A stretch of DNA of 64,000 bases from Ruminiclostridium josui JCM 17888. Lineage in GTDB: Bacteria > Bacillota > Clostridia > Acetivibrionales > DSM-1351. The translations under genes and the position numbers were made by a program. The notes under the pieces are model-generated. The model was not told the origin of the DNA, searched no databases, and worked only from the letters and a program-made list of their open reading frames with translations. Positions within the stretch are counted from its first letter, which is position 1, and every line of letters begins with the position of its first letter. The stretch is from the NCBI RefSeq assembly GCF_000526495.1, contig NZ_JAGE01000001.1, positions 310,001-374,000 of the forward strand, read 5' to 3'. Positions 6,617-32,998 of the stretch are shown in pieces.

Positions 6617-7788
6617 CTATTTTCTATCTGTCTGCTGTTTCCAGTTACTATAGTTATATTCGATTACTATACAGCCGTTTTCTGTATTTTCCAAGGTTGC
6701 ACCTGTTTCGGGTAGTACGTCTTTACTGTCATATACTGTTATTTTGTTAACCATTAGTTCAATTATATTTCTGGTAATTCCATGTGTTTTTATTTTTGTA
6801 ATAAAATTTTTAATCAGTTGTTCTTTATTTAACTGCTTTGTTTCTTCTTCCTTTAGTTTTTCTATTTCCTGCCTTATTGTTGAAATACGGGTTTCAAGGT
6901 TTTGGTTCATCCTACAAAACAACTGTTCCGAAATTCTTCCTTCAAGCCTGTCATTGTACAGAATATCCTGCTGTTTTTGTTTTTGGATTATCTGCTGTTC
7001 AAATCTCTTTATACTGTGCAAAATACGTTCCTTCTCTGCTATTTCACTGCTATAATTTATATTCAAGTTATCAATCAGCTCGTTATTTGATAGAAGTTCC
7101 AGCAGTTCTTTTGTTAATATGTCAATAATACTCTCTTCTGTAACATAGTGGCTTGAGCACACTTCGCAGCCTTTTTTGGAATAGGAGCTGCATATATAGC
7201 CTACCGGCCTATCTTTTCTGACTCGAACATACATTGCTTTACCACATTTGCCACAATAGACAAAGTTACTCAGGAGATGTGTTACATTACGATTATATCC
7301 TTGGTTTGACCTTTTTTTAGCTCTCAATTTCTGAACTTCTTCAAATTCTTCATTGGATATTATGGGTTCGTGTGTGTTAGTTGTTATTATCCATTTTTCA
7401 AATGGCAGTCTTCTGGTTTTTTTGTTTTTAAAGCTTATTTTTTCACTGACACCTTGAACCGTATCCCCTATATATACTCGGTTACATAAGATTCTCTGAA
7501 CTGCAACCTGATTCCATGGGGTTATAGGTATCTCAGAATTTTTAGATGAAGGCGACGGATATCCTTTTTGGTTAAGCATATTTGCTATGGCAGCATAACC
7601 GTAGCCTTTTCGGTATAAACTAAATATCTCCTTTACCACAGGTGCATTTCTACTGTCTATAACCAGCTTATTTTTTTCATTTACCGATTTCACGTACCCA
7701 AATGGTGCATTGCCTATGTACTCACCTTGCTCAATTTTAAACCTGAGATTGGCTCTTATTTTTTTCGATATGTCTCTAATGTACCGCT
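6617..7788 (-). pseudogene. C-terminal part of a large serine recombinase, split by the 24.8-kb element
   Basis: This 390-codon segment lacks the catalytic resolvase domain but has all the rest. The order is the end of the resolvase domain (RYNERYIRDISKKIR), the recombinase domain (GEYIGNAPFGYVKS onward), a zinc ribbon (CGKCG ... YICSSYSKKGC), a coiled-coil and the C-terminus. Its open frame reaches only slightly beyond the att core before a stop at 7829-7831. The missing N-terminus lies at 32589-32998 on the same strand, and joining at the GAG codon 7787-7789 gives a continuous 526-residue protein. A GTG at 7693 could start a shortened product but has no clear ribosome site. It is therefore the downstream half of an interrupted gene and not random debris. 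Confidence 0.88.
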
Positions 7789-7797
7789 CGTTGTACC
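7777..7797. other. Left attachment junction of the element
   Basis: TAATGTACCGCTCGTTGTACC here matches 19 of 21 bases with 32578-32598, where TT replaces CC. Sequence to the left continues the interrupted recombinase, and sequence to the right belongs to the element. The inferred crossover dinucleotide is TC at 7788-7789 (GA on the gene strand). Immediately inside lies CATCATGGATATA, inverted relative to TATATCCATGAT at the other end. Confidence 0.82.
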
Positions 7798-7802
7798 TTA
7801 CA

Positions 7803-8000
7803 TCATGGATATATACGTGTACTGTTTTTTATTTTTTTACTTTTTTTATTCGTCTTGTTCGCCTTGTTCACTGCTTCTTCCAAAGTCACATATCTACACT
7901 TGTATCCTGTTATACGGGATACAACATCTCCAACATTGTTAAGTCTCTTTAACCTTTCTTCAGGAGTAATATCTGGTGTAATTATTACTTTATCCGACAT
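7803..8000 (-). CDS. Small protein beside the att site, possible directionality factor
   Basis: A 65-residue, lysine-rich protein with an excellent ribosome site (AAGGAGGAG seven bases before the ATG at 7998-8000). Its stop lies a few bases inside the left att core, and it is divergent from the integrase gene at 8123. I do not recognise the family. The middle (PDITPEERLKRLNNVGDVVS) looks helical and the tail is strongly basic. Small basic proteins next to a serine integrase and its att site are often recombination directionality factors or excisionases, but here that is position-based inference only. The gene cannot be the lost catalytic part of the neighbouring recombinase. Confidence 0.6.
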   Translation of the reverse strand: MSDKVIITPDITPEERLKRLNNVGDVVSRITGYKCRYVTLEEAVNKANKTNKKSKKIKNSTRIYP

Positions 8001-8122
8001 AAATACTCCTCCTTACTACAAGTCTATTTTCCACGGTCTGTCCCTTATACATTTTTCAACGTTTTAACAAGAACTCTTTTAGCATAAAATTTATATATAT
8101 TAATTCAACGGAGTATCTTAAA

Positions 8123-9637
8123 ATGGTAAAGACCTGCATATATCTTAGAAAATCAAGAGAAGATGAGAGAATGGAAAAGGAACTTGGAAAAGGTGAAACA
8201 CTTTCAAAGCATAGAGAAGATTTATTAAATTTTGCAAAAAAGAAAGATTTATTTATTGCAAAAATTTATGAAGAACTTGTTACAGGAGAAAGTCTTCTTT
8301 ACAGACCTGCCATGCTTGAACTTCTAAAGGACGTTGAAGCCGGAGTGTACGATGCTGTTCTGGTAATGGATTTACAAAGGCTTGGCCGCGGAGATATGGA
8401 AGAACAAGGAATTATTCTTAAGGCCTTTAAAAATACAAATACTAAAATTATAACCCCGGACAAGGAATATGACCTTTCAAATGAGTTTGACGAAGAATAT
8501 AGTGAATTTGAAGCATTCATGAGCCGTAAGGAATACAAAATGATTAACAAGCGCCTTCAAAGAGGAGTTATTCATTCTGTAAACAGCGGCAACTACAATT
8601 CTCCATACCCTCCATTTGGATATATTATAAAGCAGGAGAAATTGGGACGTACTTTGGAGCCTCATCCACAGCAATCTGAAATTATAAAGTGTATATACGG
8701 ATGGTATGTAAATGAATCCGTGGGCAGTCAGATTATTGCACAAAGACTTAATAGTATGGGGCTTAAAACAAATAAAAATAATAATTGGACTTGTCAGGCG
8801 GTAACAGCTATTTTAAAAAATCCTGTTTATACTGGAAAAATAGCTTGGAGAAAAACCTCAATTAATCGTATGCCCCCAAAAAAGAGCAAAAAGGTTCAAC
8901 CAAGACAGGACTGGATTCTTGCAGAAGGAAAACATCCTGCACTGATTTCAGAAACTATTTATCAAAAAGCACAAAACATCATGAAAAATAACAATAAAAC
9001 TCACACCAAACAATCTTCCTGTCTACAAAATACTTTAGCCGGAATAATTGTTTGCGGAGTTTGCGGGGCTAAAATGCGGTATAGACCATACCATAATTCA
9101 GAGCCACATCTTGTATGTATTAATAAATGCGGTAATAAAAGCAGTAAGTTTAAATATATTGAGAACTGTGTGCTGTCAAGCCTTAATGAATATCTAAAAG
9201 AATATTTATTTGAATTATCAGAAGAGCCTCAGAAGAATACTAGCAGTCAGGATGCTTTAAAGGCTAGTTATGCTATGCTTGAAAAACAGATGAAAGAAGC
9301 TTATTTACAAAAAGAGAATGTTTATAATCTTTTGGAAAAAGGTGTTTATTCTGTAGAGGATTTTAATCAAAGACTTATTTCTGTTAATACAAGAATTAAT
9401 GAACTCCGGCAATCTATTTCTAACATAGACAAACTACAGAAAAAAGTACTTAGTCAAAACCCTTGCAATACAAAGATTCAAAGTGGTATTTCAAAAATAA
9501 TGAAAATATATAATAATCTAAAAAGCGTTGAAGATAAAAATATCTTACTTAAAAGTATTTTAGGAAAAGTTGAATACTTCAAAAGCAAGGATTGTAGAAA
9601 TGATAATTTTTTGCTGAGGATATTTCCTCTTATTTAG
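8123..9637 (+). CDS. Large serine recombinase, probable integrase of the element
   Basis: The 504-residue protein is complete. It has a resolvase domain (about 1-140, with the nucleophile serine expected at S11 in YLRKSRED and arginines in LQRLGRGD), a recombinase domain (about 150-290), a zinc ribbon (CGVCGAKMRY ... CINKCG, about 313-340), a coiled-coil, and a C-terminal tail. This is the SpoIVCA/phage-integrase type that joins attP and attB without host factors. It lies about 330 bases inside the left att site and reads inward, the usual position for an integrase relative to attP. The ribosome site is CGGAG about ten bases upstream. It is distinct from the interrupted recombinase, sharing only family motifs with it. 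A bidirectional terminator follows. Confidence 0.9.
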   Translation: MVKTCIYLRKSREDERMEKELGKGETLSKHREDLLNFAKKKDLFIAKIYEELVTGESLLYRPAMLELLKDVEAGVYDAVLVMDLQRLGRGDMEEQGIILKAFKNTNTKIITPDKEYDLSNEFDEEYSEFEAFMSRKEYKMINKRLQRGVIHSVNSGNYNSPYPPFGYIIKQEKLGRTLEPHPQQSEIIKCIYGWYVNESVGSQIIAQRLNSMGLKTNKNNNWTCQAVTAILKNPVYTGKIAWRKTSINRMPPKKSKKVQPRQDWILAEGKHPALISETIYQKAQNIMKNNNKTHTKQSSCLQNTLAGIIVCGVCGAKMRYRPYHNSEPHLVCINKCGNKSSKFKYIENCVLSSLNEYLKEYLFELSEEPQKNTSSQDALKASYAMLEKQMKEAYLQKENVYNLLEKGVYSVEDFNQRLISVNTRINELRQSISNIDKLQKKVLSQNPCNTKIQSGISKIMKIYNNLKSVEDKNILLKSILGKVEYFKSKDCRNDNFLLRIFPLI

Positions 9638-9669
9638 ACTTATTAGTTTTTGAAACTTCCCATGCAAAC

Positions 9670-9713
9670 AAGCATAGCAACCGAAGAAATATTATTAGTC
9701 GGCTGCTATGCTT
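9670..9713. terminator. Bidirectional intrinsic terminator
   Basis: The 15-base arms at 9670-9684 (beginning AAGCATAGCAACCGA) and 9699-9713 pair with one mismatch. The hairpin sits between the convergent ends of the integrase gene and the fascin-like gene. Confidence 0.8.
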
Positions 9714-9726
9714 ATTAATTTCTTAA

Positions 9727-10128
9727 TTATCTAAAAACCACTATAACTTCAAAGATTTCATCAGGACCTATTGTGTTGCTTGCTGCATATAATTTTCTAT
9801 TATTATCTCTCTTATAGCTTACAAACTTTCCGTTGTGTGCTCTTATTGCAACCTTATTCATGCCAAGGCAAATAAAATCAAATGTTTCGTTATTAGTAAT
9901 AGCCTCATTGTTGGATTTAATTCTTACTAGCCCATCATCAGCAACACTGAGCAAATCTCTGGTATGTGTTTGTATGTATGCACCGCTCAAGGCTGCCGGC
10001 ACAGTAAATATAATATCTTGTCTGGTTTCATCATACCTACTTGATGTTAATAAAGCATCATTTTTCTCAATACATAAGTATTCGCCGTTACTTGCTTTAA
10101 CAGCTACCCTAGCTCCCATAAACGACAT
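9727..10128 (-). CDS. Small fascin-like beta-trefoil protein
   Basis: A 133-residue protein with recurring beta-trefoil units of the fascin/actin-crosslinking type: RVAVKASNGEYLCIEKN near the start, AYIQTHTRDLLSVADDG in the middle, and KVAIRAHNGKFVSYKRDNN towards the end. Three units of about 40 residues make one trefoil. It has no signal peptide or membrane segment. In bacteria such domains usually bind carbohydrate or act as adhesive modules, and the function here is unknown. It lies 62 bases downstream of the histidine kinase on the same strand and is probably the third gene of that operon. The start is supported by GGGAGGA seven bases upstream. Confidence 0.7.
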   Translation of the reverse strand: MSFMGARVAVKASNGEYLCIEKNDALLTSSRYDETRQDIIFTVPAALSGAYIQTHTRDLLSVADDGLVRIKSNNEAITNNETFDFICLGMNKVAIRAHNGKFVSYKRDNNRKLYAASNTIGPDEIFEVIVVFR

Positions 10129-10190
10129 AATATATTCCTCCCTAAAAAACTATAAATTTTGTATAATTATAGCAAGTTTTATAAGGTTTA

Positions 10191-12029
10191 TCAAATAGAC
10201 GTTTTTATGGGAATTGTTATAAATACTGTAGTTCCTTTGCCTTCTTCCGACTCAATGGATATAGAACCCCGGAATTGACTCTTTACGGCAATATTCGCAA
10301 AATACAGTCCGAGACCTGAACCATCTTTGCCTTTAGTTGTAACCATTTCATTAAAAATTCGATTCTTTATATCTGATGGAATTCCTTTTCCAAAATCCTG
10401 TATTGTAAATAGAACTCCTTCTGGCTTAGCGTCTGCCTGCAAATTGATGACACCACCATCACTGTATGCCTGCGTAGCATTTATGACAGCATTTCCCAGA
10501 ATTTGTGTCAATGATGAAATGTCTCCTTCTATACAAGTATCCTCATTAACATTTAAAACACTGTTTAGGCTGCAATTGGACTTTTTAAGCTCAAAATCCA
10601 AAAGTAATTCAATCTTTGAGAATAATTCTCCTACTGTAAATTTTCTATGCTGGGTTCCAATCATACTGGCAGCTTGTTCTTTAACTGCAGTAATCATGTC
10701 TGACATATAAACAAGGTAATTTTTTATTGTATCCTCCCATTTTCTCATATCTGATACAATATCCAAATATTCAGAGTATTCCCCATTATTATTCAAATCA
10801 GTTATTAGACTCTCTAGCTTGCGGGTATGGTTTTTAAGAGCAAGAATGCCTCCTGAAGATGACATCAGCGGAGATTTCATATTATGAGAAATACCACCTA
10901 TAAGATTATGCAAAGAAATCAGTCTTGCCTTTTCAATCATCTGCTTTGCATTCTCTTCCATCAGTTTTATAACCTGTATATGCTCTGTCAGGTCACGGAA
11001 TAAAATAAGTATTGCAATGTATTGCTCATGAGCATATACATGTATAATTTCAATTTCAAAGTAACGCCAAACATCATTTATTGTGAATTCCTGCTCAATT
11101 CTTGTATTCTGATGTGATCCTCCCTTGTTGGCAGTAATTTTAGATATTTGATTTTTGAGATTATTAAAATTCTCATCCTGCATTACTTTATAAAAATCAC
11201 TCTCATTTTGTTTTATTATTGAGCCAAACTCGTTTTTAAAGTTATTGTTCATTTCCAAAATGTTGTTTTTATAGTCTATAACTACAAATGAATCACTTAT
11301 GTAGTCCACAATACTCCTTATTGCAATGGGAAGTGTATCAAGAAACTTATATTTCTTTATTGCAATTGATAAGCACACCGTTGTAAAGCAATAGCTCAGG
11401 GTGTGTATACTGTCAGGTAATGAAATAGGAAGGTTTGAAAAATAGTTTAAATATACCACATAATCCACTGCTATAGGCATAATTATACCTGAAACTACAA
11501 GGAGTATTTGTCTTGTAAGGCAGTTTGTGTACTTGAGACTGAAATATATAAGGTATAAAACCGCAAAAGTCGAATAAATCAATTGCCATGTACAATGAAC
11601 ATAGTAATAGCTTCCGAATACCAAAGTCTTAACATCTTCTGAAATTTCCTTTATAAAAAGCTTATGAAAGCTATTGGTAACAAGCATTATTGTGCTCGTT
11701 ACAGGTGGTATGCAAATTAGAATATAAGTTACAATAGAGCTGATTTTGTTCTTTACAAGGAGTATGCAAAACATAATAAGAGTCGCCGGGAGAAAAAATA
11801 CACAGATTGAACCCGCAAAGTATATGCTGCATATCCTATAACCTGTAATAGTGTCTATGATAATATTTGACACTGCAAGTATCGTCCACATAAATAGGAT
11901 TAAAATATTCAAGGCACAGATACGATGCAGCTGCCTTGAATATTTTATATTTTTTATTCTGATTAGGAGTACTAAATGTACTCCTGCAGAGAATAAATAG
12001 ATTAAGATTTTTATTATTGATTCAAGCAT
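10191..12029 (-). CDS. Membrane-bound sensor histidine kinase (7TM-PAS-HATPase)
   Basis: A 612-residue sensor kinase. Residues 1-225 contain about seven hydrophobic segments (histidine-kinase N-terminal 7TM type), and 235-350 form a PAS-like domain ending in FRDLTEH. The H-box follows with GISHNMKSP, so H382 is the likely phosphorylated residue. An HATPase domain ends the protein: N-box near 511-522, G1 DFGKGIP near 545, G2 GSGLGL near 570. The sensed signal is unknown. It starts 11 bases behind the response regulator gene, so the two form an operon and presumably a cognate pair. It is part of the integrated element and probably controls the divergent genes at 12998 and 13453. Confidence 0.88.
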   Translation of the reverse strand: MLESIIKILIYLFSAGVHLVLLIRIKNIKYSRQLHRICALNILILFMWTILAVSNIIIDTITGYRICSIYFAGSICVFFLPATLIMFCILLVKNKISSIVTYILICIPPVTSTIMLVTNSFHKLFIKEISEDVKTLVFGSYYYVHCTWQLIYSTFAVLYLIYFSLKYTNCLTRQILLVVSGIIMPIAVDYVVYLNYFSNLPISLPDSIHTLSYCFTTVCLSIAIKKYKFLDTLPIAIRSIVDYISDSFVVIDYKNNILEMNNNFKNEFGSIIKQNESDFYKVMQDENFNNLKNQISKITANKGGSHQNTRIEQEFTINDVWRYFEIEIIHVYAHEQYIAILILFRDLTEHIQVIKLMEENAKQMIEKARLISLHNLIGGISHNMKSPLMSSSGGILALKNHTRKLESLITDLNNNGEYSEYLDIVSDMRKWEDTIKNYLVYMSDMITAVKEQAASMIGTQHRKFTVGELFSKIELLLDFELKKSNCSLNSVLNVNEDTCIEGDISSLTQILGNAVINATQAYSDGGVINLQADAKPEGVLFTIQDFGKGIPSDIKNRIFNEMVTTKGKDGSGLGLYFANIAVKSQFRGSISIESEEGKGTTVFITIPIKTSI

Positions 12030-12040
12030 AAAACATACCT

Positions 12041-12661
12041 CTATTTTTTTGACAGATTAGGGGTATCTCCGAAATTAGCCTTGTAGCAAAGTAAATAGTC
12101 CGTGGTTACTCTAAAAAGTTCTGCAAGTTTTTTTATGTTTTCCCCTGTAGGCTCAGTTTGATTGGTTTCCCAGTTAGCTATAGCCGTACGACCTACTCCT
12201 AAAAATTTGCCAAGGTCTTCTTGACTGATATTATGGATTCTTCTCAGCCTTTTTAGACGAATACCAAAGCTTCCTTCTTTTCTTGAATGCTCTACAGATT
12301 TTCTTGCAGACTCAATCATAATCAGTATTTCTTCAAAGTTTGCTGTCTTTTCGCAATACATTTGAATATCAAGATTTTTAAGTGTTTCCAAACCAGGAGC
12401 TTCTTCGGCCCTTCCGGTAAGAAGCATAATATAAAGCTCATCATCTGTTTTTCTTATCTTTTCGGTTACTTGTTTTCCATCCATGGAATCAATAAAATAG
12501 TCTAAAATCAAGAGGTCGTAATTATTTTCCTTTATTGCATCGATTCCTTCCTTTGAAGTCACAAACCCATCAACTATGTATTCGGATGAAAGATTTGCTT
12601 TTATTGCATCAATAACTCCCTGTTCATCATCAATAATAATTATTTTGAATTTATCTTCCAT
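12041..12661 (-). CDS. Response regulator with receiver and XRE-type DNA-binding domain
   Basis: A 206-residue protein. The receiver domain spans about 5-120, with acidic D11/D12, phospho-acceptor D54 in LLILDY, T82 and K105. A lambda-repressor-like HTH follows (about 133-190: LKRLRRIHNISQEDLGKFLGV...). Receivers are most often joined to OmpR, NarL or LytTR output domains, so receiver-XRE is uncommon. The short C-terminal tail has no recognisable motif. The start has a GGAGG-type site upstream. A TTGGTA-N16-TATAAT promoter lies at 12695-12722 with a TGACAT motif inside the spacer, suggesting autoregulation. It is the first gene of the operon with the kinase. Confidence 0.88.
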   Translation of the reverse strand: MEDKFKIIIIDDEQGVIDAIKANLSSEYIVDGFVTSKEGIDAIKENNYDLLILDYFIDSMDGKQVTEKIRKTDDELYIMLLTGRAEEAPGLETLKNLDIQMYCEKTANFEEILIMIESARKSVEHSRKEGSFGIRLKRLRRIHNISQEDLGKFLGVGRTAIANWETNQTEPTGENIKKLAELFRVTTDYLLCYKANFGDTPNLSKK

Positions 12662-12694
12662 ACCGGCCTCCTCACCGCCATATTTTATTTAATT

Positions 12695-12966
12695 ATTATA
12701 CCGTATTTTGACATTTTACCAACTAAAAATATAGAAAAATATTCTTTAATAATTCAAATATAATACAATTTATGTTTTTTAGCAATATATTTTTCATTAT
12801 TTATGACATTTATCACCTAATAATTCCATGTTATTTGTATATTATAAATGTCATTATTACTATACAATAACTGCTTGTAGCACGCTAAAATTAAATGGAA
12901 AATATTTCTTGACACGTCACATATAATGACATATAATTAGCTCAACAAATGATATCATTTATGACA
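12695..12966. promoter_or_regulatory. Divergent promoter region with five TGACA(T) motifs, candidate operators
   Basis: On the plus strand TTGACA (12909-12914), 17 bases, TATAAT (12932-12937) is a perfect promoter for the AidA/PixA-like genes. On the minus strand TTGGTA-N16-TATAAT (12695-12722) would serve the regulator-kinase operon. The motif TGACA(T), often as AATGACATT-like near-palindromes, occurs at 12709-12714, 12803-12809, 12848-12854 (inverted), 12926-12932 and 12961-12966. Two copies lie inside promoter spacers and one just downstream of the -10. These are plausible sites for the receiver-XRE protein. The rest of this 336-base intergenic region is AT-rich without genes. Confidence 0.6.
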
Positions 12967-12997
12967 ATTTAGTCCAATACTGAAAGGAGAGTCTAAA

Positions 12998-13423
12998 ATG
13001 ACACAAGCTTTAACACCATCCCCATCGGATTGTAATGTAAAAATTGTTATTTACGTCGATACTGCCAAAGCAAGAACAGGTTCAACCCAAGGAATCTATA
13101 TGGTTGATGACAGGGCTCCTAAAAGCTATAACGAGGGGACCGCTGGTCTGGATACATATTGCAACACTAATGACTACATATGCTGGAGAATTTTACCGAT
13201 TGATCCCGATACTCACGATTCAGTTGCTATTACAAGCTTCGATCAGTCACTTGCTTGGGGATACGGCGGAAGCCCAAAGGCCTCAGATACTACAAACACC
13301 GTTTGGGTAGGAAGAGCAGAAAATCAGGGAAGCAATCAGACACCAATCAATATAATTATCACTGAAAGCAACAAAAACCCTGTAACATTAAAAATTAATC
13401 CTGTTCTGAATGTTAACGGATAA
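12998..13423 (+). CDS. AidA/PixA-like protein, copy 1
   Basis: The 141-residue soluble protein resembles the AidA / PixA (inclusion body protein) family. Motifs are IVIYVDTAKA near the start, GIYMVDDRAP, the central ICWRILPIDPDTHDSVAI and a glycine-rich strand before WVGRAENQG. AidA is known as a quorum-sensing-controlled protein in Burkholderia and PixA as an inclusion protein in Xenorhabdus. The molecular role is not established, so none is given here. There is no signal peptide. A perfect sigma-A promoter and a GAAAGGAGAG ribosome site precede it, suggesting high expression. A paralogue follows after 29 bases. The family call is from motif memory; a search would settle it. Confidence 0.65.
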   Translation: MTQALTPSPSDCNVKIVIYVDTAKARTGSTQGIYMVDDRAPKSYNEGTAGLDTYCNTNDYICWRILPIDPDTHDSVAITSFDQSLAWGYGGSPKASDTTNTVWVGRAENQGSNQTPINIIITESNKNPVTLKINPVLNVNG

Positions 13424-13452
13424 TATTTTTTAAATAAAGGAGGTCACAAAAA

Positions 13453-13875
13453 ATGACTGAAACTATTGTTTTAAAAGCCCAAATAAGAGCGCAAACCAAG
13501 ATAGTAATAACAGTTGATACTTCAAGAGTACTAAGCGGGGATACAAGAGGAATATTTATGATAGATAATCGCGCCGAAGTCGGAAGTGCTAATGAAGGCA
13601 CTCTGGAACTTAGCACAAGATGCTTTGCGGGAGATTATGTTTCATGGCTGGTTAACCCTATTGATCCTGATACTCAGGATACAGTGTCCATAGCAGGATT
13701 CCAGGTTTCAAGCGGAAATGTATTCGGCGGTGAAGGAAGTCCTCAGCCCGCATCAGATGACAATACATACTGGATGGGTCGTGCATTTAATCAGGGAACC
13801 TCAACATATCAAATTAAGCTTCTTATAAACGGTACACACGTTATACAATGGGACCCTTTTATAACTGCTGTATAA
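13453..13875 (+). CDS. AidA/PixA-like protein, copy 2
   Basis: The 140-residue paralogue of the preceding protein has the same order of motifs: IVITVDTSRV, GIFMIDNRAE, WLVNPIDPDTQDTVSIAGF, a glycine-rich loop (VFGGEGSPQPASDDNTYWMG), and a C-terminal WDPFITAV typical of the AidA/PixA group. The two copies have diverged clearly, so this is an old duplication or a heteromeric pair. AAAGGAGG precedes the ATG. It is certainly cotranscribed with copy 1. Nothing coding follows for about 730 bases, where sequence composition changes to more GC-rich. Confidence 0.65.
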   Translation: MTETIVLKAQIRAQTKIVITVDTSRVLSGDTRGIFMIDNRAEVGSANEGTLELSTRCFAGDYVSWLVNPIDPDTQDTVSIAGFQVSSGNVFGGEGSPQPASDDNTYWMGRAFNQGTSTYQIKLLINGTHVIQWDPFITAV

Positions 13876-14460
13876 CCTCGAACCATGGGGTGCAAGCCGA
13901 TTAAAATGTTCGTTACCGGCAATCTACGGAAGCTGCATGTTACATTTTCGAAAATACACTCGTTATCCGGCACTTGAATGCTCAACGCCATAAGCCACCG
14001 TGTGCGGCTGTGTCGCGTTTTGTTAACCGCCATAAGGTGTTTGCCCATTCGACAAAAATGAAAACCGGGTTTGGCGGCTTTCTGCGAAAGGGTCTTATCA
14101 TTAAAAATGCAGACCAAAAATGTGTTTCGTCAACTCAATTTGTGGGGTGAACCATGGGGTCGAAAACCATGCAGGTTAAAGAGGGGTGGTCGCAAGCGAC
14201 CTTCCCTCGGATCACATCAGCCGAAATGCGGGCTGTAAGCATTTGGTATAGGTAGTCGGAAATGAATGCATTATGCCATTAGGTGGTCGGAACTACCAGA
14301 AACTCCACATTTCAAGCAGTTTTTCAGGTGCCGGAGCAAGCTGCACCTAAGCATTTGGCACCCAACATATATCCGATATATTCCACTACTCCCAGAACAT
14401 CAGTTTTTTCAATTCAACATAATCGGACATAAAAAACCCGGCTACCGTTTTATTGGTTTA
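13876..14460. other. Non-coding GC-richer stretch with repeated hairpins
   Basis: No convincing gene is seen. The stretch holds a direct repeat GAACCATGGGGT (13880-13891 and 14149-14160). A hairpin at 14181-14208 has the core GTGGTCGCAAGCGACC and outer arms GAGGG/CCCTC. A second hairpin CAGCC...GGCTG is at 14218-14235, and two ATAGGT-nGTCGG-like boxes follow (about 14249 and 14282). The same order of parts recurs at 17906-17990 with changed but still pairing outer arms. It may be a boundary element or structured RNA between cargo cassettes. Confidence 0.5.
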
Positions 14461-14605
14461 CCGGGTAATTGGCAGTAATTCAAAATTTGCATAAGAATCT
14501 GTGTAAATAGCCATAGCCATCCATTGGCTGAATGTCGATTGACGGCTATGGCTATATTTTGTTGTTTTATCGGTAAAAAGTTCATAAGATATTATTGTAT
14601 CTTCG

Positions 14606-15128
14606 TTATAGTCCGATGTTAATCCCCGCTTTGCGGTTTCCCCAATAAACAAATTCAGAATCTTTATTATCCTTCGCACTTATGATACAAAGTGAATATA
14701 AACCCACATTATCTGGATTGGCAGTATCGATTGTATACTCATATATTGCAACATGATATTCTTGTTTACTGGTGGTAAAAACATATGTTGATTGGGCTTC
14801 TTTTTTGTGATTACTGTTACCGTCAGCATTTTTTCTTCAGGAAAAGAGTAGGCGCCTGTACTTTTCCAAGATTGGATTTCACCTTGAATATAGTTGAATA
14901 AAGTATTTAAATTTCCGTCAAAGTCATCGGCTTCGGACAAAGCCTGCTTGGAAAACATCGCTTTTAAAGCAACTTTATCTTCGCGCTTTATTGCTTCAAT
15001 CAATTGTTCCATTCGAGCATCTGCTTTTTTATCACTATCATCGACTTTCACTCTACCAAATCCGTCTTTACATGAACATAATAACAGCATGCTTGCAAGT
15101 AATAAAAACATTAATAATTTTTTTTCAT
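14606..15128 (-). pseudogene. DUF5104-type lipoprotein gene with two frameshifts in A-runs
   Basis: The restored product would be a roughly 170-residue lipoprotein: a signal peptide with lipobox LLLCSC, then KDGFGRVKVDDSDKKAD and the DUF5104 body, ending near ...FVYWGNRKAGIN. Two single-base losses break it. The first is at the start, where ATG is followed by eight A (nine are needed to read MKKKLL...). The second is near 14840, where six A after GAAG should be seven; beyond it the correct frame reads NADGNSNHKKEAQS and continues to the stop at 14606-14608. An AGGAGGG ribosome site before the ATG at 15126-15128 is intact. It is a decayed or phase-switched gene, or carries sequencing errors. 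Function is unknown; related lipoproteins occur in toxin-rich regions. Confidence 0.75.
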
Positions 15129-15139
15129 GATTAGCCCTC

Positions 15140-15850
15140 CTAAAAGTTTAACATCGCCGTATAATTTTTCTTATCGAATGTCCATGGGGAGTTTTTTTGT
15201 CCAGCATACTGTTTATAAAATGCATCAAACATTCCTTTATTTTCTTTGTTCCCTGAAAAATCAACAGTATATGTAACTCTTAAGTCCCTTGCATTAACAT
15301 CCTGCTTGTAAGGATTAAACGCTGTTATCCACCACTGAGGCTCTGACGGGTTATACGAAGCAATTAGGTTTCCTTTATTATCATTCAACGTCAGGGTCAT
15401 TGGCAACGCAAGGTTCGTATCAACAAGCCAATGGTCTGTTTCATTTTCGAATACTGATAACCTTTTATATAAACCCAACTCCGCTCCGGCTCCTAAATTC
15501 AAATAGTCTCCTTTCCATGCCCAGAATCTGTAATCTTGATCATCGTATGTAAACTCGAAAGGTTGCGTTTTCATACTGGTGGCATAATCAAAGATTATAT
15601 CGTAAACGAAATTGTACCCTCCATATTGCTGTAAAGCATCTTGTCGCGCGTGGTAAACGCCTTTATCATCTCTGACAAATCCTGCAGCATAAAACAGGTC
15701 TTTAAACCAGCCATGTTGAGTTGCATAAACTGCGGCTGGATTTTCAATTAAGTATTCTGCAATAGTTCTTGTTACATCTTCAGGCTTAAGTTTGGATAAA
15801 TCTATTTCACCATTCCCCGCCCCCTCACTACAAGAGCTATAACTATTATA
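15140..15850 (-). pseudogene. DUF4474-type gene lacking its 5' end
   Basis: The last 144 residues from an ATG at 15574 match the DUF4474 pattern (FEFTYDDQDYRFWAWKGDYLNL..., PSEPQWWITAFNP, TYTVDFSGN). Homologous reading continues upstream without a start (IDLSKLKPEDVTRTIAEYL..., HGWFKDLFYAAGF), as far as a stop at 15851-15853. The internal ATG has no ribosome site. The gene is therefore truncated at its 5' end, just before the IS110 segment, which is probably what removed it. DUF4474 proteins are of unknown function. It ends 12 bases before the DUF5104 remnant on the same strand, so the two were likely one unit. Confidence 0.7.
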
Positions 15851-15914
15851 TTATCTCCGTTCCATATCCTCAATCAAAAAAAGCAAATTACTCCCAAGTG
15901 TTTAAATCTTGTTT

Positions 15915-17150
15915 TTAAAAATTAGTTCTATCAGCCTTCTCAAATGGTCTGTATTCCGTCTTTGTTTTCATCATGCCGTAAATAATTCTTACAAGCCTTC
16001 TCGCCACACGGACCAATGCCTGTGGCTTGTTCTTACCTTCCGTAACCTTTTGCTCAAAGTACTCTCTAAACACAGGATGTCTCGGAGTTCCGCACTTTGA
16101 TACTGATATCATCTGAATCGCTAAGAAGTGGAATATTGCGTTTAATGCCCTGTTTCCATTTCTGCAGCGTTCATCCTTGCCTTTTCCTGCTGAACTGAAT
16201 TTTACCGGAGCCAGACCCATGAACTGAGCAAGCTTATCCGAGTCGGGAAAACGGTTGATATCCCCGATTTCAGAAATGATTTGAGCTTCGGTTGTAATAT
16301 CAATTCCGGGCATTGTTCTTAATTTGTAGCCTGTCAGAGGGATTATTCTTTCAAGCTCAATATCAATTTCATGTATCTGCTCAAGGTTATTCTTAATGCT
16401 TTTCACAAGGCTTTTAACGATGAAATCTCTTTCCTCTTGGAAGTCTTTCCGAGTATCTCCATCAGCTTCAATGAGAGCATGTATTTGGAGTATTCTCTCC
16501 ATTTTCAAGCTTTGATTAATTGCCTTTAATGCTTCATAAACCTTTTCAGGAGTGGTATTTTTTATGTGCATGGGTGACGGATAGTTTTCCCAAAAGTAAA
16601 GGGCACTTTTTCCGTCAATTTCTGAAAAGAACTTTCTGTAGCTTGGATATGAGTACATTAGCTGATTATGAAGCGTGTTTTTATTCATGACGTTATTCTT
16701 CACAAGCAGGTCACGCCTTTTTACCATTTGCCGTATTGTCCAGTAAATATCCTCATGCTTTGCATCTGGCAGACTATCTACCATATCACGCAAAACTCTT
16801 GCAACACAATAAGCGTCATAGGAGTCATCCTTGTGAACAATTGGATTCGCCAGTCTTACTGCACTTGTATGTGCTGGGTTTACATGCTTTACATCAAATT
16901 TTCTGCCGACAAGGTAAGCCGACAGGTTTCTTCCAAAGCCTCTTGTGTCTTCAAGCCCAAATACTATTTCCTTTGAACCGCATATTCTTCTGACATTTTC
17001 GATGAATGCGGGAAACTTCGATGGTCTGTTTTCAAAGCTGATTTCTCCCATTTTATCCATCCAACAGTCAATAATGACTGCGCAGTGCATGTCTTTATGC
17101 ATGTCAATTCCGATAAAGCAGGTGTTTCTTTTTTTGTATATTCCCATCAT
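15915..17150 (-). CDS. IS110-family transposase
   Basis: A 411-residue DEDD recombinase. The N-terminal RuvC-like domain shows GIDMHKDMH (first D), FGLEDTRGFG (E) and KDDSYDAYC (D), and the C-terminal Transposase_20 domain contains LRTMPGIDITTEAQIISEIG and FMGLAPVKFSSAGKG, with the catalytic serine region around SSAG. It looks complete. IS110 elements have no large inverted ends, so the exact borders are not visible; they should lie near 15851-15914 and 17151-17480. The upstream non-coding stretch is structured, as expected for the guide (bridge) RNA of this family. The 5' truncation of DUF4474 lies next to its downstream side. Confidence 0.9.
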   Translation of the reverse strand: MMGIYKKRNTCFIGIDMHKDMHCAVIIDCWMDKMGEISFENRPSKFPAFIENVRRICGSKEIVFGLEDTRGFGRNLSAYLVGRKFDVKHVNPAHTSAVRLANPIVHKDDSYDAYCVARVLRDMVDSLPDAKHEDIYWTIRQMVKRRDLLVKNNVMNKNTLHNQLMYSYPSYRKFFSEIDGKSALYFWENYPSPMHIKNTTPEKVYEALKAINQSLKMERILQIHALIEADGDTRKDFQEERDFIVKSLVKSIKNNLEQIHEIDIELERIIPLTGYKLRTMPGIDITTEAQIISEIGDINRFPDSDKLAQFMGLAPVKFSSAGKGKDERCRNGNRALNAIFHFLAIQMISVSKCGTPRHPVFREYFEQKVTEGKNKPQALVRVARRLVRIIYGMMKTKTEYRPFEKADRTNF

Positions 17151-17447
17151 CTCCTATATTTTGTCTCCATCTCTCATACCGGCAACCTCAATTTAAGAGC
17201 GTTAGATTGAGCAGTTGACATACTTTCTGTCATCAGCCCAACCCTCGCAAGGGGGCGGCAACCTATCTAATCCAAATGTGACAGATTACGTGATTTTAGG
17301 CTCACGAGCCTTTATTCTGTTCTTTTGTTGCGTGAGCTTTTACTATTCGTAAAAGCACTCGCAAAAGTACAAATTTCAATTGTGTGTGATGTTAACTCTG
17401 GTTAGAAATGATTGCAAGTAGATTTTAAGAAAGAGACAAAACAAAAA
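17151..17447 (-). ncRNA. Structured leader of the IS110 element, candidate bridge-RNA region
   Basis: About 300 non-coding bases upstream of the transposase. Several hairpins are visible: GCTTTTAC/GTAAAAGC (17336-17356, perfect 8 bp), GGCTCACGAGCC with a more distant CGTGAGC partner (about 17299-17337), and CCCTCGCAAGGGG (about 17243-17256). Members of the IS110 group encode their guide RNA in this left, pre-transposase segment. The exact RNA ends and guide loops cannot be assigned by eye. Confidence 0.4.
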
Positions 17448-17483
17448 CAGAGAAGAAAAACATTTATCGTTTATTCTTCTCTG
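17448..17483 (-). terminator. Intrinsic terminator, probably of the Rhs/immunity transcript
   Basis: CAGAGAAGAA (17448-17457) pairs with TTCTTCTCTG (17474-17483). On the minus strand a T-rich tail follows the stem. Confidence 0.6.
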
Positions 17484-18120
17484 CCTAACATTTATTTTGA
17501 TATGCTTTTTTTGCTAAGATTTCGGGGAAGTAATTTTCCCCCTTAAACCCCCGGTCGCGTCCCAGTTTACCACAGATAAAAAAGCCTGACAAGGAGGGGT
17601 TCACCATGAACTGTGGGTGCTTTTGTAGATGTTTTTGCTAGACTCTAATCAGCAACTTTTCTATATCTTTGCCAATGGGCTGTCTTCTCTGAAAGAGTTG
17701 GTTTTTAACCACCGTCTTCAACTGCGAAATGCTTACCCCTGTGTCGCGACGTGTTACCCCTGTTTCCGATTTTCAATCTGCTGTAGGATACAAATACCTC
17801 TGCTATGACTGAAAAGGTATTTGAGGGCAATTTGAACGACTGTTCCTTTCAGCACTTTTCCGATCAAATTATGCTGTCTCCCCTATGATTTCGGTGCTGG
17901 ATAAAGGCACGTGGTCGCAAGCGACCTGTGCCATAGAACAACCGCCGGCAGTGCCGGCGGTTTGAGTGAGTTCATATAGGTGGTCGGAATGACCTGTTGT
18001 GTGTCGGGTTGGTGGTCGTAAAATTGCTCATGCCCTGTGTTTAAAGATTTTGGAGGTGGGCAAATAGGTTTATTGTAGCGTTTAATCTGTTCCCATAGTA
18101 TATTATAAGACAGTCCTCAA
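17484..18120. other. Non-coding stretch with hairpins matching those at 14181
   Basis: No convincing gene is seen in these roughly 640 bases. The hairpin at 17906-17932 has the same core GTGGTCGCAAGCGACC as 14181-14208, but its outer arms are GGCAC/GTGCC. Next comes a perfect 11-bp inverted repeat AACCGCCGGCA-G-TGCCGGCGGTT (17940-17962), then ATAGGTGGTCGG (about 17977) and GGTGGTCG (about 18013). GGGGAA/TTTTCCCC lies near 17524-17541. It lies between the immunity gene and the IS110. Confidence 0.5.
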
Positions 18121-18139
18121 AAGCCATCCCCTCTTTGCT

Positions 18140-18598
18140 CTACCACGCAACAAGATTCCTTTCTGAAACATCTGTGATAGACCTATATTGTACATTTTCA
18201 AATTCATTATCTATACAATTGTTATATACTATGTCTAATATGTCCTTGTCTTTACAGTAAAATTCTATAAATCCAGAATCGGTGCAAAGAAATACAATTT
18301 CACATTTACTTTCTAAAAAATCTTTGAAATTATTAATTTCAGCTCTTTTAGAATTTATAGGATACGCCTTTATATCAACAAATATCATGTAATATTTATC
18401 TCTTGAAATACATTTTAGGAATTCTTCTCCACTTAAAATATCTATCTCAAAAAGTTTTTCTTTTCTTTCACCATTTTCGTAAAATTGAAAATCTTCATAA
18501 ATTATTTCCCATTCATATTGAAGTACATCTACTCCACTGAAAATTTTACAAAGATAATTATTTTTTTCATTTTTCACATTAATGTCTAATGCAATCAT
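18140..18598 (-). CDS. DUF2691 family protein, likely immunity protein of the Rhs toxin
   Basis: A 152-residue soluble acidic protein matching the DUF2691 pattern: VLQYEWEIIYEDFQFYENG, FEIDILSGEEFLKCIS, YYMIFVDIKAYPI, and CEIVFLCTDSGFIEFYCKDK. No enzymatic motif is known. It starts 54 bases after the stop of the giant Rhs protein on the same strand. That is the standard place for the immunity gene of a polymorphic toxin, and this is the basis of the role assigned here. The ribosome site GGGAG lies about ten bases before the ATG. Immunity function is inferred and not shown by sequence. Confidence 0.7.
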   Translation of the reverse strand: MIALDINVKNEKNNYLCKIFSGVDVLQYEWEIIYEDFQFYENGERKEKLFEIDILSGEEFLKCISRDKYYMIFVDIKAYPINSKRAEINNFKDFLESKCEIVFLCTDSGFIEFYCKDKDILDIVYNNCIDNEFENVQYRSITDVSERNLVAW

Positions 18599-18652
18599 TT
18601 TTTATTTGCTCCCGTCATTATTAATTTTTACTTGCAAAGTGCTAAAAAAATC

Positions 18653-21600
18653 TCAAACCAAATCTTTAGGTTTATACTCAGGCATTGACCGCATCCAAAT
18701 ATCAATTAAAGGCTTTGGTATTATAATAGGGCTCACTCTAGCTTCAACAGCATCCCCTACTCGGATAGCACCCTCTTTTAATGCAGGTAGTAGTTTTATT
18801 AATAAAGGTATCGGATCACCTCTTTCACCATTTTCATCATACTCATGACCATGCGGGAATGTATGTCCAGTACCACCATGATTATAGTCTATATCTACAT
18901 CAGGTTCTGTATTTGGCTTATACCATCTTTCTTGCTTAACGCTTCCATCGGGGTTATAAAGTGTCCCTGTAGATCCTGGCTCCCCATTCCATGGCAAGCT
19001 ACTAGTTGGTGTTTTAACTCCGTTTTTCTCTGTATATGTATCTGGGATCTTGGCTGCATTATTAACATTAAGATTACCCGTCCCCTTAGTTGCATTCCCT
19101 TTCTGATTTGGCTTATTAGTATCTTTATAATAGTTATTTGTTTGGTTATGTGATGAAATAATTTGATTATTTCCATTAACATTTACCATTTGAGTTCCTT
19201 TTATATCTCCATTTTTAACGGTTGTATCAATAGAGTATGTTACATAGGAATTCGTACTTTTGGTAAACATTTTATCAAATTGTTCATTATCAATTACTAT
19301 TTTTCCATTTACATTTTTATAGTCTGATGTTTTTAATTCCTTTGTTATTCCATTAACTGTTACAACAGCAACTCTTTTTTTAGAATCCCATTTTGCATTC
19401 CCACCAACTGACTTAGCTAAATCTGTCAAATAAGCATATGTATGCCCTGTCGGGTCAAAATACATCACCGGCTCATTATGGCAATACGTATACAAATTCA
19501 AGCTCAGCGGATCGTTAGGGTCACCAGTATAAGTATCCTCACTTAGGAATCTGGCTGTTTTACTGTCATAGTAGCGGGCATTCAGGTAATAGAGATCTGT
19601 TTCCTTATCGTACTGGTAGCCTGCGTAGGTTATGTTATTATTGACGTCCCCCGTCTGCTCTGTTATGTTTCCGAAGGCGTCGTAATAGTAGGTTGCTTGG
19701 ATTGCTCCGTTTTCCCCTATTAGTGCGGTTACATCTCCGTGACCGTTGTACATATAGTTCATTGTATCATTTTGTGCAGTTCTTGTCAGGAGATTTAAAC
19801 CATATATGTTTCTGGCTGTCTCGTTGCCTTCTACGTCTGTTTCCAGTACTACCTTGTCAGCTTCATACAGGTAGTTTGTGGTACGCTCATTTTCGGTCTT
19901 GGTTACCCTGTAGCCTTCTCCGTTATAAGAATAGGTTGCTGTTTTCTTACCTGTTGTGGTTTTTATCAACTGATTCCAGACATCGAACTGATAGTAGGTT
20001 ACATTGCTTGCCATACTCTGACCTGACTTTTCCAGACTAAAGCCTCCTGATGTTGACGTAGCAACCGGTTTTACTATTTCTGTGGTTTTTGAAACTGTGT
20101 TACCGTTATTGTCATACCTGTATGTGTCGGTTATTGTTTCGGTGCCACTTCTCTTTACTGTTGATACAAGTCTGTTCTGCTCGTTATAGGTATATGTGGT
20201 GGTTACAGAGGCCGCACCTGCCAGTATAGTTTCTGTAAGCCTGTTTCCTGCCTTGTCAAAGGTATAGTTGGTTGTCCTGCCGTTTGGCTCCATTATCTTT
20301 TCAAGTCTGTTGAGACTGTCGTAGATGTAGCTTGTAGTTCCTTTTCGGTCTGTCTTTGAAGTCTGGTTGTGAGCTTCGTCATAGGTATAACTATAGGTGT
20401 CTATTACCGTTCCATCGGCTTTTTTGTTAGTGAGAGTTTTATTTAGTCCGTCCTTGTAGTATGTGTATTCCTCTTTTGCTCCGTCGTTGTAAATTACGGT
20501 TTTTCTGCTTCCATTGCCGTAATATTTGTATGTAGTGGTCTTTCCCTCCGATATTACTTGGTAAAGTCTTCCTACTTTGTCGTATACTTTTTTTGTCAGG
20601 TTGTTCTTGAAATCCTCAGTAGTTTCAGAATACAAACCTTCTCCCTCAGGATTATCATAAGTATAAGTTGTTGTACCAAAGCCCGGTGCTTTTTTGGTTA
20701 TTACCCTGTTTTCTTCGTCATAGGTTCTCGTAGTTGTACCTGTTTTATCAGTCATTGTAAGTTGGTTGTCATTGTTGTCGTAAGTATAGCTGATTGCAGT
20801 TTCTCCTATGGCTTTTCTGGTAAGTCTACCATGTATGTCATAGGAATATATGGTCTGTTTTCCGTTTCTATCAGTTTTTGTCTTCAGGCTGCCGTCTGCA
20901 AAATAGGTGTACTTTTCTGTTTTAGCATCCAGATATGTATATTTCCCCGGTGTCCCTATTCTTCCACCCTGGTCTATTTTCCTAATAACCTTATTTGCAG
21001 CATTGTACTCATAGTAGGTTGTGTTTCCGTTTCCGTCAGTCTGAGTTAACTTGTTTCCGTTCAAGTCGTAGGTATAGGTTGTTTTCTCAGACTTGGGGTT
21101 AATTACCTCTGTCAACCTGTTAAATTCATCAAATCTATATGTTGTGGTAATATTTCTGCCATTTGTTTTGGCTATGATATTACCAACATCATCATAGGAT
21201 TGACTTGTTGTATGACCCTCTGGGTCTATAGTTGCAATGAGTCTGTTGTTTTTGTCGTATATGTATATGGTTTCGTTGCCCAATGCATCTGTTGATTTTA
21301 TTTGTTTGCTGTTTTTGTTGTACTCTAACTTTTGTATTGTAGTGTAGGGATCTTTTTTTTCTATTAACCTGTTTAATGGATCATAGATGTTGGTACTTGT
21401 ATTACCAAGCCAGTCGGTTTCAGAGGTTTTGTTTCCGTTGGCATCGTATGTCCAAGTAGTTGTTTTTTCCCTGCCACCTACCGTTGTTTCAACAGCTAGA
21501 AGTCTGTTTAAACTGTCATAGTTATATGTCTTTACATTCCCATTCCCGTCAGTTTCCGAGTATTTGTTTCCATTTAAGTCATAGGTTGAATATGTAGTTA

Positions 21601-24600
21601 TGGCCTGGGTATTATCGGACTTTTTCTCTGTATGGGAAAGCTGTCTCCCCTGATTATCGTAGGTATAGAGGTCAACCTTTCCCATTGAGTTTAGTTGTTG
21701 CTTCAGTTGTCCCATTTCGTCGTACTGGCTTGTTACCATTATTGACGGGATGGTGCTGTCTCCCGGTGCAACTGTTTTTCTGACTTTCCCCAGAGCGTTA
21801 TATTCAAATGTAGTGGTATTGCCGTTCCCGTCAGTCTGTGCCAGTATTCTGCCTGCAAGGTCATAGGTAGAATGCTTTATTACCTTTGGTTCAGACGAAG
21901 GATTTTTTTTCAGACTTACTGAAAGTATATCCCCTGCATCGTTGTATGTGTACCGGGTTTCCACTTTGTTTGCATTGGTTTCAGATATCTTTCTTGCCAA
22001 TCCGTCATATTCACTTCTGGAAGTAAATGCAAGATCATATTCCTTTGCTACCGGGTCTTTTGACGTTATTACCAGGTTTGCCAGATTGTATGTATACTCG
22101 GTACCATAACCTGAATTTATTTTTTCTTCCAGTGTTGTTCCTACTCCTGAGTCATATCCCGCAGCATCGAGTTCTTTTATGAGATTGCCTGAATTATCAT
22201 ATTTGCAGGTTTTTGTGTATATGGTTATCCACTGGTGTGTAACAGGGTCTATATATATGTCTTTTTTTGCTATGACTCTGTCCATTTCATCGTAGACATA
22301 TTCAATCCTGCTCATGTTATAAATACTTTTTGTGCTATCATAGTTTTTTGGTGTTACTTCTGCTATTTTTCTTCCTGCAAGGTCGTAGTCGTACGCTGTT
22401 ACTCCATTTTGGGCATCTGTTACTTTAATCAGTAATCCTCTATGATTATACTCATACTTTGTAATACCGCCCTTAGCATCTGTTACAGTAAGCAGGTTTC
22501 CCTCCCAGTCGTAGGTTGTGGATTTAGTTATTGTGACGACCACACCCTTTTCACTCACTCCGGGTTCACTTTGAGATAGCTGTCTGTCAAGTTCATCATA
22601 TTCAAATGTGGTGGTTACCTTGTTGGGGGCTGTCACGGTTTTTCTGTTACCATTCTTATCATAGGTATAGGAGGTTGTAAGTACTGTGTCCGTTGTGTCG
22701 TCAAAGTCTTTTCCGTACAGGTCTCCTGCTTTTACATGCTGCTCCTTTTTTTCCAACTTCCCAAGGTAATTGTAAGTATAATCTGTTACTAACTTATTGG
22801 CTGCATCAGTATATACACTTTCTCTTATAACGTTTCCATCGTCATCATATAGGTACTCCGTCTTTCTTCCTTCAGAATCCATTGTTTGACTAACGTTACC
22901 GTTTTTGTAATACCGATAGTTTGTTATTGCAAGACTTTCAGGTATTGACCAAAGAAGTACCTTGTCTTTGCCTGATTTCACCGCAGTTTTTCTTCCGGCT
23001 TTGTCATATTCGATTTTGCTATAGGTGTACAGTGTGTTTCCGTTGGATACTTCAAATGGAGTCCACTGTTCTGTCAATCTGTTTAGTCCGTCATATTTGA
23101 AGTATGTACTGCTTCCATTAGCTGCAATCTGCCTGTTGATTGTTTCGTTTGCGTTGTATATTGTCCTGAGCCTGGTTCCATCCGGATTCTGCTGTTCTAC
23201 AAGCCTGTCAGCATAGTCATAGGTATAAACTGTGACAGCCTTATCCTTGGAATCAAGAAATTTTGTTTCAGTTTTCTGTGTTTTTCCATCTTCCAAAGTT
23301 GCATAACTATATTGGGTAAGTAATATTTCAGATACTGATGAATTATCTCTGAAGTATATTTTAAGTGGTCTGTCCAGAACATCATACTCATATCTGTAAA
23401 TTGCACCGTTGGGTTTTGTTTCGGTAAGAATGTTTCCGTATACATCGTAAGTGAAGCTTGTTTTATCTCCTAATGCATTTATTTGTTCCTTTATTTTACC
23501 ACTGTCAAAGTATTCGTATTTTGTCCCCACCGTATTGTCAACGTATGTATTAGTTTCTACGTTGTCCTTAGTACTATCGTATTGGTTTGGGGTAATTTCT
23601 TGCATTTTTCTTCCCAATAGATCATACACAGTTCTTTGAGTCTCATTTTTTGAACTTACTATTGTAGTCTTAATTAACTGGCCGTTTTTGTCGTAGGTAA
23701 ATTCAGTTCTGTAGCCTTTTGGTGTCGTTTCGGAGGTTTTCCATCCAATCTGGTTGTACTCATAAGTTGTAACTTTTCCTGTTTCCGGGTCAGATACAGT
23801 TTCTACATCGCCGTAAGTATTGTAGGTATATGTGGTTGTATTACCTTCCGCATCAGTTTCACTTTTTAATAATCCTTTTGCCAATGAACCCGATTCTTCC
23901 GCAGTATAGTATTGGTAAGAGGTTATTGCAAAACCTGTATCGTCTGTACCGTCGTATACATCTGTCCCGTTAAGGGGTTGTACCTTCTTTATAAGGTTTA
24001 TCTTGTTTTCATCGTACACATTGTAGGTTATTTTCCCGCACTCATCCACTTCTTTTGTTACATTGTTTTTTTCATCATATTCTTTTAAATATGTACTTCC
24101 GTCAGGATTGATAATTTTAGTTACATTACCTCTATCATCAATTTCATACTGTGTTTTATTACCATTACAGTCAGTTTGAGATTTTATATCGCCATATTTG
24201 TTTTTACCTCCATATTGAAAATACTCCGTATAGCTTGATTTTCCGTCAGGGTTCTGCACTCGGATAGTATAGAAGGAGGAGTCAAACCAATAGGAGGATA
24301 CCCTTCCATTTATATCGATAATGGTAGTTTTTTTATTTGTCATATCATAGGCATATTTAACTGTATCTCCCAAAGAATCTGTTGCCTCTGATACCTTGTG
24401 CTGGTTTTCACCCTCTGCATGATTATATGTGATTTTTTCAACTACCTTTTCGTTATGGTCTTGTATCTGATTCAGATATCCCCATGAATCATAAAAATAT
24501 CTCATTTTACCGCCCATAGGGTCTGTAACCACTGACAGTCTTTTATTATTGTCATATTCATATACTACCACCCTGTTTTCCGGGTCAGTGATTTTTTGAA

Positions 24601-26554: not shown

Positions 26555-26578
26555 TTAAGTGTCACCCCTTTTTATCCT

Positions 26579-29940: not shown

Positions 29941-29954
29941 GTTCCCGGAGTTAG
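29941..29954. repeat. Right copy of the 14-bp target duplication
   Basis: GTTCCCGGAGTTAG, identical to 28254-28267. Removing one copy plus the insertion restores a normal FN3 module (NSLTPGTHHSYRVRS). Confidence 0.8.
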
Positions 29955-32399: not shown

Positions 32400-32447
32400 A
32401 ACATAATCTCCTTTTTTAATGAATTTTGTCAAACGATGGATTATATA

Positions 32448-32476
32448 ATATTACCATCATTTACATCCCCTTTCAA
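32448..32476 (-). promoter_or_regulatory. Candidate promoter of the kelch-FN3/Rhs operon
   Basis: On the minus strand TTGAAA (32471-32476), 17 bases, TAATAT (32448-32453), about 50 bases before the ATG at 32399. It lies inside the element near its right end. Confidence 0.5.
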
Positions 32477-32577
32477 TTATGTTCTGTTTTTGCTTTATAA
32501 TTTTATTTCCACATTACAAATGTTTAAAATCCCTACATCCCTTCCCCCTCAACAATTTCAGCAATATATCCATGATA

Positions 32578-32598
32578 TAATGTATTGCTCGTTGTACC
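32578..32598. other. Right attachment junction of the element
   Basis: TAATGTATTGCTCGTTGTACC matches the left junction except for TT instead of CC. To its right is the N-terminal part of the interrupted recombinase. To its left, TATATCCATGAT is the inverted partner of the arm at 7801-7813. The inferred crossover TC is at 32589-32590. Confidence 0.82.
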
Positions 32599-32998
32599 AT
32601 GTATCTATTCCCACGGTTTCATTGTCCTTCAGGCTATCGTATCTGCCGTCAGATGTAATGACTCTCACTCCGTATTCCTCCAGAAAATCAAGGAAAAGCA
32701 GGGTTTTGGCATTGTTTCTTCCCAGTCTTGACAAGTCCTTTAAAACCACAAGATTTATATTGCACGCCATTACGTCTTTTTTCAGTTCTTCAAGAGCATA
32801 CCTTTCAAAGCCTGCACCTGAAACATTGTCATCAACATAAGTTTTATAGATAGTTCCAAAATTATTCTTTTTCACAAAGTCTGCCAAAAGCTTTTTCTGT
32901 GTTTCAATAGTCTCAATATTTTCCTCATTTTCATCTCTGCTTTGCCTTACATATATACCTATATGATAATTGATATCAGGTTTGTTAAATCCAAGCAT
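32589..32998 (-). pseudogene. N-terminal (catalytic) part of the interrupted serine recombinase
   Basis: The first 137 codons of a large serine recombinase: nucleophile S20 in IYVRQSRDE, then VDDNVSGAGFER, LVVLKDLSRLGRN, and the end of the resolvase domain at GIDTWYNE. Past the junction the frame reads ten element-derived codons and stops at 32558. The start has GGGAGGA five to six bases upstream. The remaining 390 codons lie at 6617-7788 on the same strand. At present it could make a stand-alone catalytic domain without DNA-binding parts, which should be inactive. Confidence 0.88.

Follow-up and report, generated by a model that had tools for sequence, protein, structure and literature searches.

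A serine integrase element splits a conserved chromosomal recombinase gene in Ruminiclostridium: attachment sites, predicted crossover point and probable precise excision

Organization of the locus

The window (the whole stretch analysed, 64,000 nucleotides of the Ruminiclostridium josui JCM 17888 genome, here G000) contains a large serine recombinase gene in two parts with an integrated element of 24.8 kb between them (Table 1). The N-terminal half carries the Resolvase domain, and the Recombinase domain and the zinc ribbon lie in the C-terminal half (Pfam). When the outer flanks of the two junctions are joined, an open frame of 526 codons results, and the site encodes WYNERYIRDISKK. The joined frame is open in 7/7 Ruminiclostridium species.

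Table 1. Features of the interrupted gene, its attachment sites and the element (positions in the window)
Feature	Position	Strand	Remarks
Upstream (N-terminal) half of interrupted chromosomal recombinase gene	32591..32998	-	
Downstream (C-terminal) half of interrupted recombinase gene	6617..7789	-	No start codon from the last upstream stop to the conserved RDISKK motif just past the junction
Left hybrid attachment site	7764..7813	-	attB half-site 7764-7787, core TC/GA 7788-7789, attP half-site 7790-7813
Right hybrid attachment site	32565..32614	-	attP half-site 32565-32588, core TC/GA 32589-32590, attB half-site 32591-32614
Predicted crossover dinucleotide GA, left junction	7788..7789	-	8-species intersection; first two bases of the Glu codon in NERYIRD
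Predicted crossover dinucleotide GA, right junction	32589..32590	-	8-species intersection
Integrated element	7790..32590	.	24,801 bp core to core
Large serine integrase of element, 504 aa	8123..9637	+	Pfam; PHROG_95; closest solved relative SPbeta YokA
65-aa protein between integrase and attachment site	7803..8000	-	ORF; weak candidate directionality factor
Fascin-like cargo protein	9727..10128	-	
Histidine kinase with 7TM input, conserved cargo	10191..12029	-	
Response regulator with HTH, conserved cargo	12041..12661	-	
Two PixA/MakCD-like proteins, conserved cargo	12998..13875	+	PixA by Pfam for the second only
IS110-family transposase within element	15915..17150	-	
Subtilase + RHS/YD-repeat giant protein, 2633 aa, cargo	18653..26554	-	
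Transposase, apparently inserted in kelch/FN3 cargo gene	28390..29691	+	HTH_38, PHROG transposase

The interrupted gene is widespread in the bacterial order to which the host belongs. Orthologues with 46-80% identity to the joined protein occur in most of its genomes, and in 44 of 58 the gene is either intact or represented by a C half. Of 196 sampled genomes of the class, 10 have the gene, eight of the ten from this order. The usual neighbours are one or another of rpoN, 5-formyltetrahydrofolate cyclo-ligase, a small conserved gene, apgM, spoIVA and a lipid-kinase-like gene (the names rpoN, spoIVA and lipid-kinase-like gene were assigned by eye from sequence in the relatives); in other families they include spoIVA and rpoN. 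The best phage proteins among the matches listed reach 30-32% identity, and no second copy above about 35% identity is among the matches listed for the G000 genome. Judged by its distribution and gene order, the target is a chromosomal gene in conserved synteny across the order and not a mobile gene. It looks like a domesticated, vertically inherited recombinase.

A block of conserved sequence, GGACAAWTTTTWATA...TGAATATAAWT, is found upstream of the recombinase gene in several species (upstream of 32998 and of the intact orthologues at L057 and L059). A sigma-E/SpoIIID promoter upstream of the gene seemed possible, but neither comparison with the regions upstream of spoIID, spoIIID and sigK nor a scan of the genome for the conserved block yielded a clear signal over background.

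The element and its cargo

The recombinase of the element begins 334 bp from the core, near one element end as in skin-type elements. The first-pass annotation had taken it to be a large serine integrase, and the domain content bears this out: Resolvase, Recombinase and zinc ribbon are found in one protein (Pfam). YokA, the integrase of SPbeta, is its best-matching solved structure (E 5e-39), and the match is near full length. The closest phage integrase found is that of Thermoanaerobacterium phage THSA-485A, 51% identical over its length. The best dyad in that phage was not accepted as its attP, as it lies inside a gene and away from the integrase. The 65-aa protein next to the integrase is under loose constraint (dN/dS 0.26-0.76), and no Pfam or PHROG match to it was found.

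Five species share a core made up of the integrase, the fascin-like protein, the histidine kinase, the response regulator and the two PixA/MakCD-like proteins. The giant subtilase-RHS protein is in varying states among them. No terminase, portal or capsid protein was found among the 15 element proteins searched against PHROGs, and the tail or virion PHROG matches of element proteins are kelch/FN3 repeat proteins. At the same codon in Pseudobacteroides cellulosolvens (G036) lies a tailed prophage of 37.7 kb with terminase, portal, major head protein and tape measure, which makes a phage origin of the element family probable, with loss of the virion genes in Ruminiclostridium. The PixA-like pair is near-identical between G000 and G007 (dS 0.01-0.02, where other compared genes have dS 0.28-0.47), which suggests that this pair alone was recently exchanged between the two genomes.

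Attachment sites and the crossover point

Both junctions, at 7774-7813 on the left and at 32565-32614 on the right, contain the sequence TAATGTA(CC/TT)GCTCGTTGTACC, in which the two differing bases are CC at the left and TT at the right. On the + strand the left junction reads ...CTCTAATGTACCGCTCGTTGTACCTTACATCATGGATATATACG and the right one ...ATATATCCATGATATAATGTATTGCTCGTTGTACCATGTATCTATTCC. The inner flanks, once joined, give the reconstructed attP TATATCCATGAT-ATAATGTATTGC-TC-GTTGTACCTTAC-ATCATGGATATA, the centre of which is TC on the + strand and GA on the gene strand. A symmetric attP of about 50 bp centred on GA, with inner half-sites that match in part, had been proposed in the first-pass annotation, and the joined flanks agree: the dyad spans 50 bp, its 12-bp arms are perfect and its inner half-sites match partly. 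At GA it scores 19/24 pairs (19/25 with the centre pair counted), the runner-up centre reaches 10/25, and none of 2000 dinucleotide shuffles attains the G000 score at its best centre. The location given in that annotation holds for the left junction; the other attP half, at 32565-32590, lies outside the range that it gave. The arm TATATCCATGAT occurs exactly only at the two junctions in the 64-kb window, and the attB sequence (<=3 mismatches) is likewise confined to the two junctions in the G000 genome.

An element occupies the same codon in six other Ruminiclostridium members and in two genomes from another family. Eight genomes, G000 included, allowed the two junctions to be paired for the attL/attR comparison, and the bases identical between the two junctions were recorded genome by genome, counted from the G of GA. 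The identical segment runs from -8 to +3 in G000, G007 and G009, from -10 to +3 in G002, from -3 to +3 in G005, from -8 to +1 in G001, from -4 to +1 in G036 and from -1 to +7 in G003. All eight segments overlap only at -1 to +1, which reads (C/T)GA. The best dyad falls exactly at GA in 8/8 reconstructed attP sites, with 17 to 20 of 24 pairs, and is equalled by 0 or 1 of 2000 shuffles per genome. Chance symmetry is ruled out as its source by the shuffles together with the agreement of the eight species. Among distant relatives the arms diverge (for example TATATCCATGAT, ATGTCCATGATAAT and CCTTCATATAGC) and the symmetry is retained, as expected if the binding half-sites coevolve with their integrase.

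Further support comes from unoccupied sites. The G001 junctions, joined at GA, reproduce the sequence of the site in G008, a close relative in which the gene is intact. The residue after NE is Arg in 23/23 intact orthologues inspected and the joined frame is open, so the earlier assignment of CGG (Arg) to attB and of CAA to attP is right. In every orthologue inspected GA makes up positions one and two of the Glu codon, so that synonymous change cannot shift the core. The central dinucleotide is identical in attP and attB by sequence comparison, as large serine integrases require. The features expected of the attP of such an integrase (about 50 bp, inverted half-sites and a 2-bp core) are present in the eight species. 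From the dyad and the junctions, which converge on the dinucleotide that had been proposed, we infer that crossover takes place at GA.

Inheritance and selection across the split

Substitution rates were estimated for the five species with orthologous elements by pairwise NG86, which is a simple estimator. The N half has 1-4 nonsynonymous against 20-38 synonymous differences per pair (dN/dS 0.006-0.025). The C half has a dN/dS of 0.039-0.069, with 7-44 nonsynonymous differences where about 159-490 would be expected under neutrality. The element integrase is also constrained (dN/dS 0.087-0.17). Intact relatives of the target give 0.016-0.03 where this is estimable, at nearly saturated dS. The interrupted gene is thus under selection while split, as expected of skin-type elements.

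In four genomes (G000, G007, G002 and G009) the open frame upstream of the RDISKK motif has no start codon, and the roughly 29 codons before the first internal start are protein-identical in all five species. In P. cellulosolvens (G036:C1:102908-103992) the downstream recombinase half is broken into frames with stops. Its degradation means that the arrangement is not kept in every lineage.

The element diverged along with the chromosome, since the dS of its kinase, regulator and integrase genes correlates with host-gene dS (r = 0.95-0.97, five species). These values are of the order of the dS of the flanking chromosomal gene apgM. The host tree and the integrase tree are compatible in a comparison that leaves out the rows for the sigK-associated integrases of G007 and G009. 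These substitution data show vertical inheritance of the element in at least five Ruminiclostridium species.

Other interrupted genes in the genome

In G000 spoIVA is also split (G000:C1:294795-302564, locus L119), about 7.4 kb to the left of the window. The two parts match profile positions 2-406 and 399-492 with about 6.3 kb between them. The insert encodes a serine recombinase of its own together with a GH53 galactanase bearing a dockerin, AgrB and a kinase-like gene, and relatives of the recombinase are found in G002, G003, G005, G007 and G009. The sigK gene of G000 is split by about 16 kb (G000:C1:3338635-3355696, L069/L070), and the recombinase within this insert adjoins the C part. The possibility that the target described here is itself the sigK-element recombinase was ruled out, because a separate recombinase accompanies sigK and genomes whose sigK is intact retain the target. 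A double interruption of sigK is apparent in G007 (G007:C1:1666094-1678770, L071), G009 and G036 (L072, L073). The second insert in these three genomes, present in addition to the usual element, adjoins residue ~137, and its integrase is 45-49% identical to that of the element in the window.

Comparison with known intervening elements

The SPbeta prophage of Bacillus subtilis resides in the spore polysaccharide gene spsM and uses the integrase SprA/YokA (PMC4191935). The present element resembles it in the large serine integrase, the in-frame split of a chromosomal gene and the restoration of that gene by precise joining. It differs in that the target is a recombinase gene, no capsid or terminase genes were recognised in the proteins tested, and excision would here be deduced from sequence. 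Skin elements in sigK are described from B. subtilis and Clostridioides difficile (PMC5025042). These likewise have their own serine recombinase, attachment sites with inverted repeats and a gene kept intact across the split. The integrase subfamily and the target are different, however, and in G000 sigK is split separately, with a recombinase of its own. The elements yin, in yabG of Clostridium botulinum (PMC10747680), and gin, in gerE of Bacillus cereus (PMC5595907), are also gene-intervening elements of spore-formers that are excised to restore the gene. Their targets are sporulation genes of known role, whereas the recombinase gene is not known to be a sporulation gene.

Programmed excision also restores genes interrupted by the heterocyst elements with XisF-type recombinases (PMC4874684). 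XisF is in the top three NCBIfam matches of both recombinases described here, far below cutoff. The heterocyst elements belong to another phylum and developmental system, and the available part of that source names no recombinase gene as a heterocyst target. Serine integrases use many target genes, according to the available part of a survey (PMC10083194). We found no published intervening element in a recombinase gene in the open-licence literature, within which the survey might include one.

Proposed mechanism and alternative explanations

We propose, with a probability of about 0.7, that this is an intervening element of the skin/SPbeta type, integrated at the attachment site of its integrase, inherited vertically and excised precisely when the recombinase is needed. 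Precise excision is suggested by three features together: the target is the only close copy among the matches listed for the genome, both halves are under strong purifying selection, and in four of the species the downstream half lacks a start codon near the junction. Most simply, excision would restore the split gene frequently enough for selection to act on it. In this model the integrase would recombine the attP dyad of about 50 bp with an attB in the NERYIRD codons of the target, with exchange at GA. If the parallel with SPbeta, skin, gin and yin holds, attL x attR recombination by the integrase would be turned on by a directionality factor under some condition. The integrase would then excise the element precisely, in cells or at a time where the recombinase is needed, and excision would restore the 526-aa recombinase, which would act on a substrate of its own and do its own job. 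Neither an excised circle nor an empty site was seen in G000. Timing to sporulation is plausible, as G000 also has a split sigK and a split spoIVA.

An ordinary, recently active integrative element could produce the same arrangement. Frequent hopping in the population would leave the gene mostly intact, and programmed excision would not be needed. Intact sisters do exist (G008 beside the split G001 and G006 beside the split G003), the cargo varies by lineage, and P. cellulosolvens has a tailed prophage at the same site. The intact sister species leave room for rapid gain and loss, though this is weakened by the dS comparison: element-gene dS correlates with that of the host gene and is of the order of the value for the neighbouring chromosomal gene, which points to shared descent and not to repeated arrival. 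The same element core is moreover present in every genome of the five-species clade. We regard this explanation as unlikely.

It is very improbable that the halves act as separate proteins, that is, as a 146-aa N-terminal catalytic piece and a C-terminal DNA-binding piece started from the internal GTG at 7693. Both reading frames are open and the GTG is present. The codons between the junction and the GTG would go untranslated in such a scheme, however, and yet their protein sequence is invariant across the five species; the N piece ends in non-conserved residues encoded by the element, and the intact orthologues are single proteins. Scarcely any weight can be given to a relic, in which the element is fixed, excision is lost and the gene is in slow decay. 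Such a state agrees with the lack of an observed excision product, and P. cellulosolvens indicates that decay can occur. Nonsynonymous differences are nevertheless few in both halves of the split gene, and the integrase is constrained too.

Precise excision, our preferred reading, could have a further consequence. By rebuilding a chromosomal serine recombinase, excision might start a cascade in which this enzyme performs its own programmed rearrangement elsewhere in the genome. We consider such a cascade possible and rather doubtful.

Implications

The known intervening elements reside in end-point genes such as sigK, spsM, gerE and yabG, whereas the target here is itself a recombinase. The interrupted recombinase is a fixed chromosomal gene of the whole order, with strong selection across the split. 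The locus also offers a natural set of attP and attB sites for one integrase family at a single codon, which should be useful for studies of specificity. The core is held in place by an invariant Glu codon, of which it occupies the two non-degenerate bases. The arrangement points to a function for a domesticated serine recombinase and allows the idea of hierarchical DNA rearrangement in bacteria to be tested. If the cascade is true, one DNA rearrangement would license the next.
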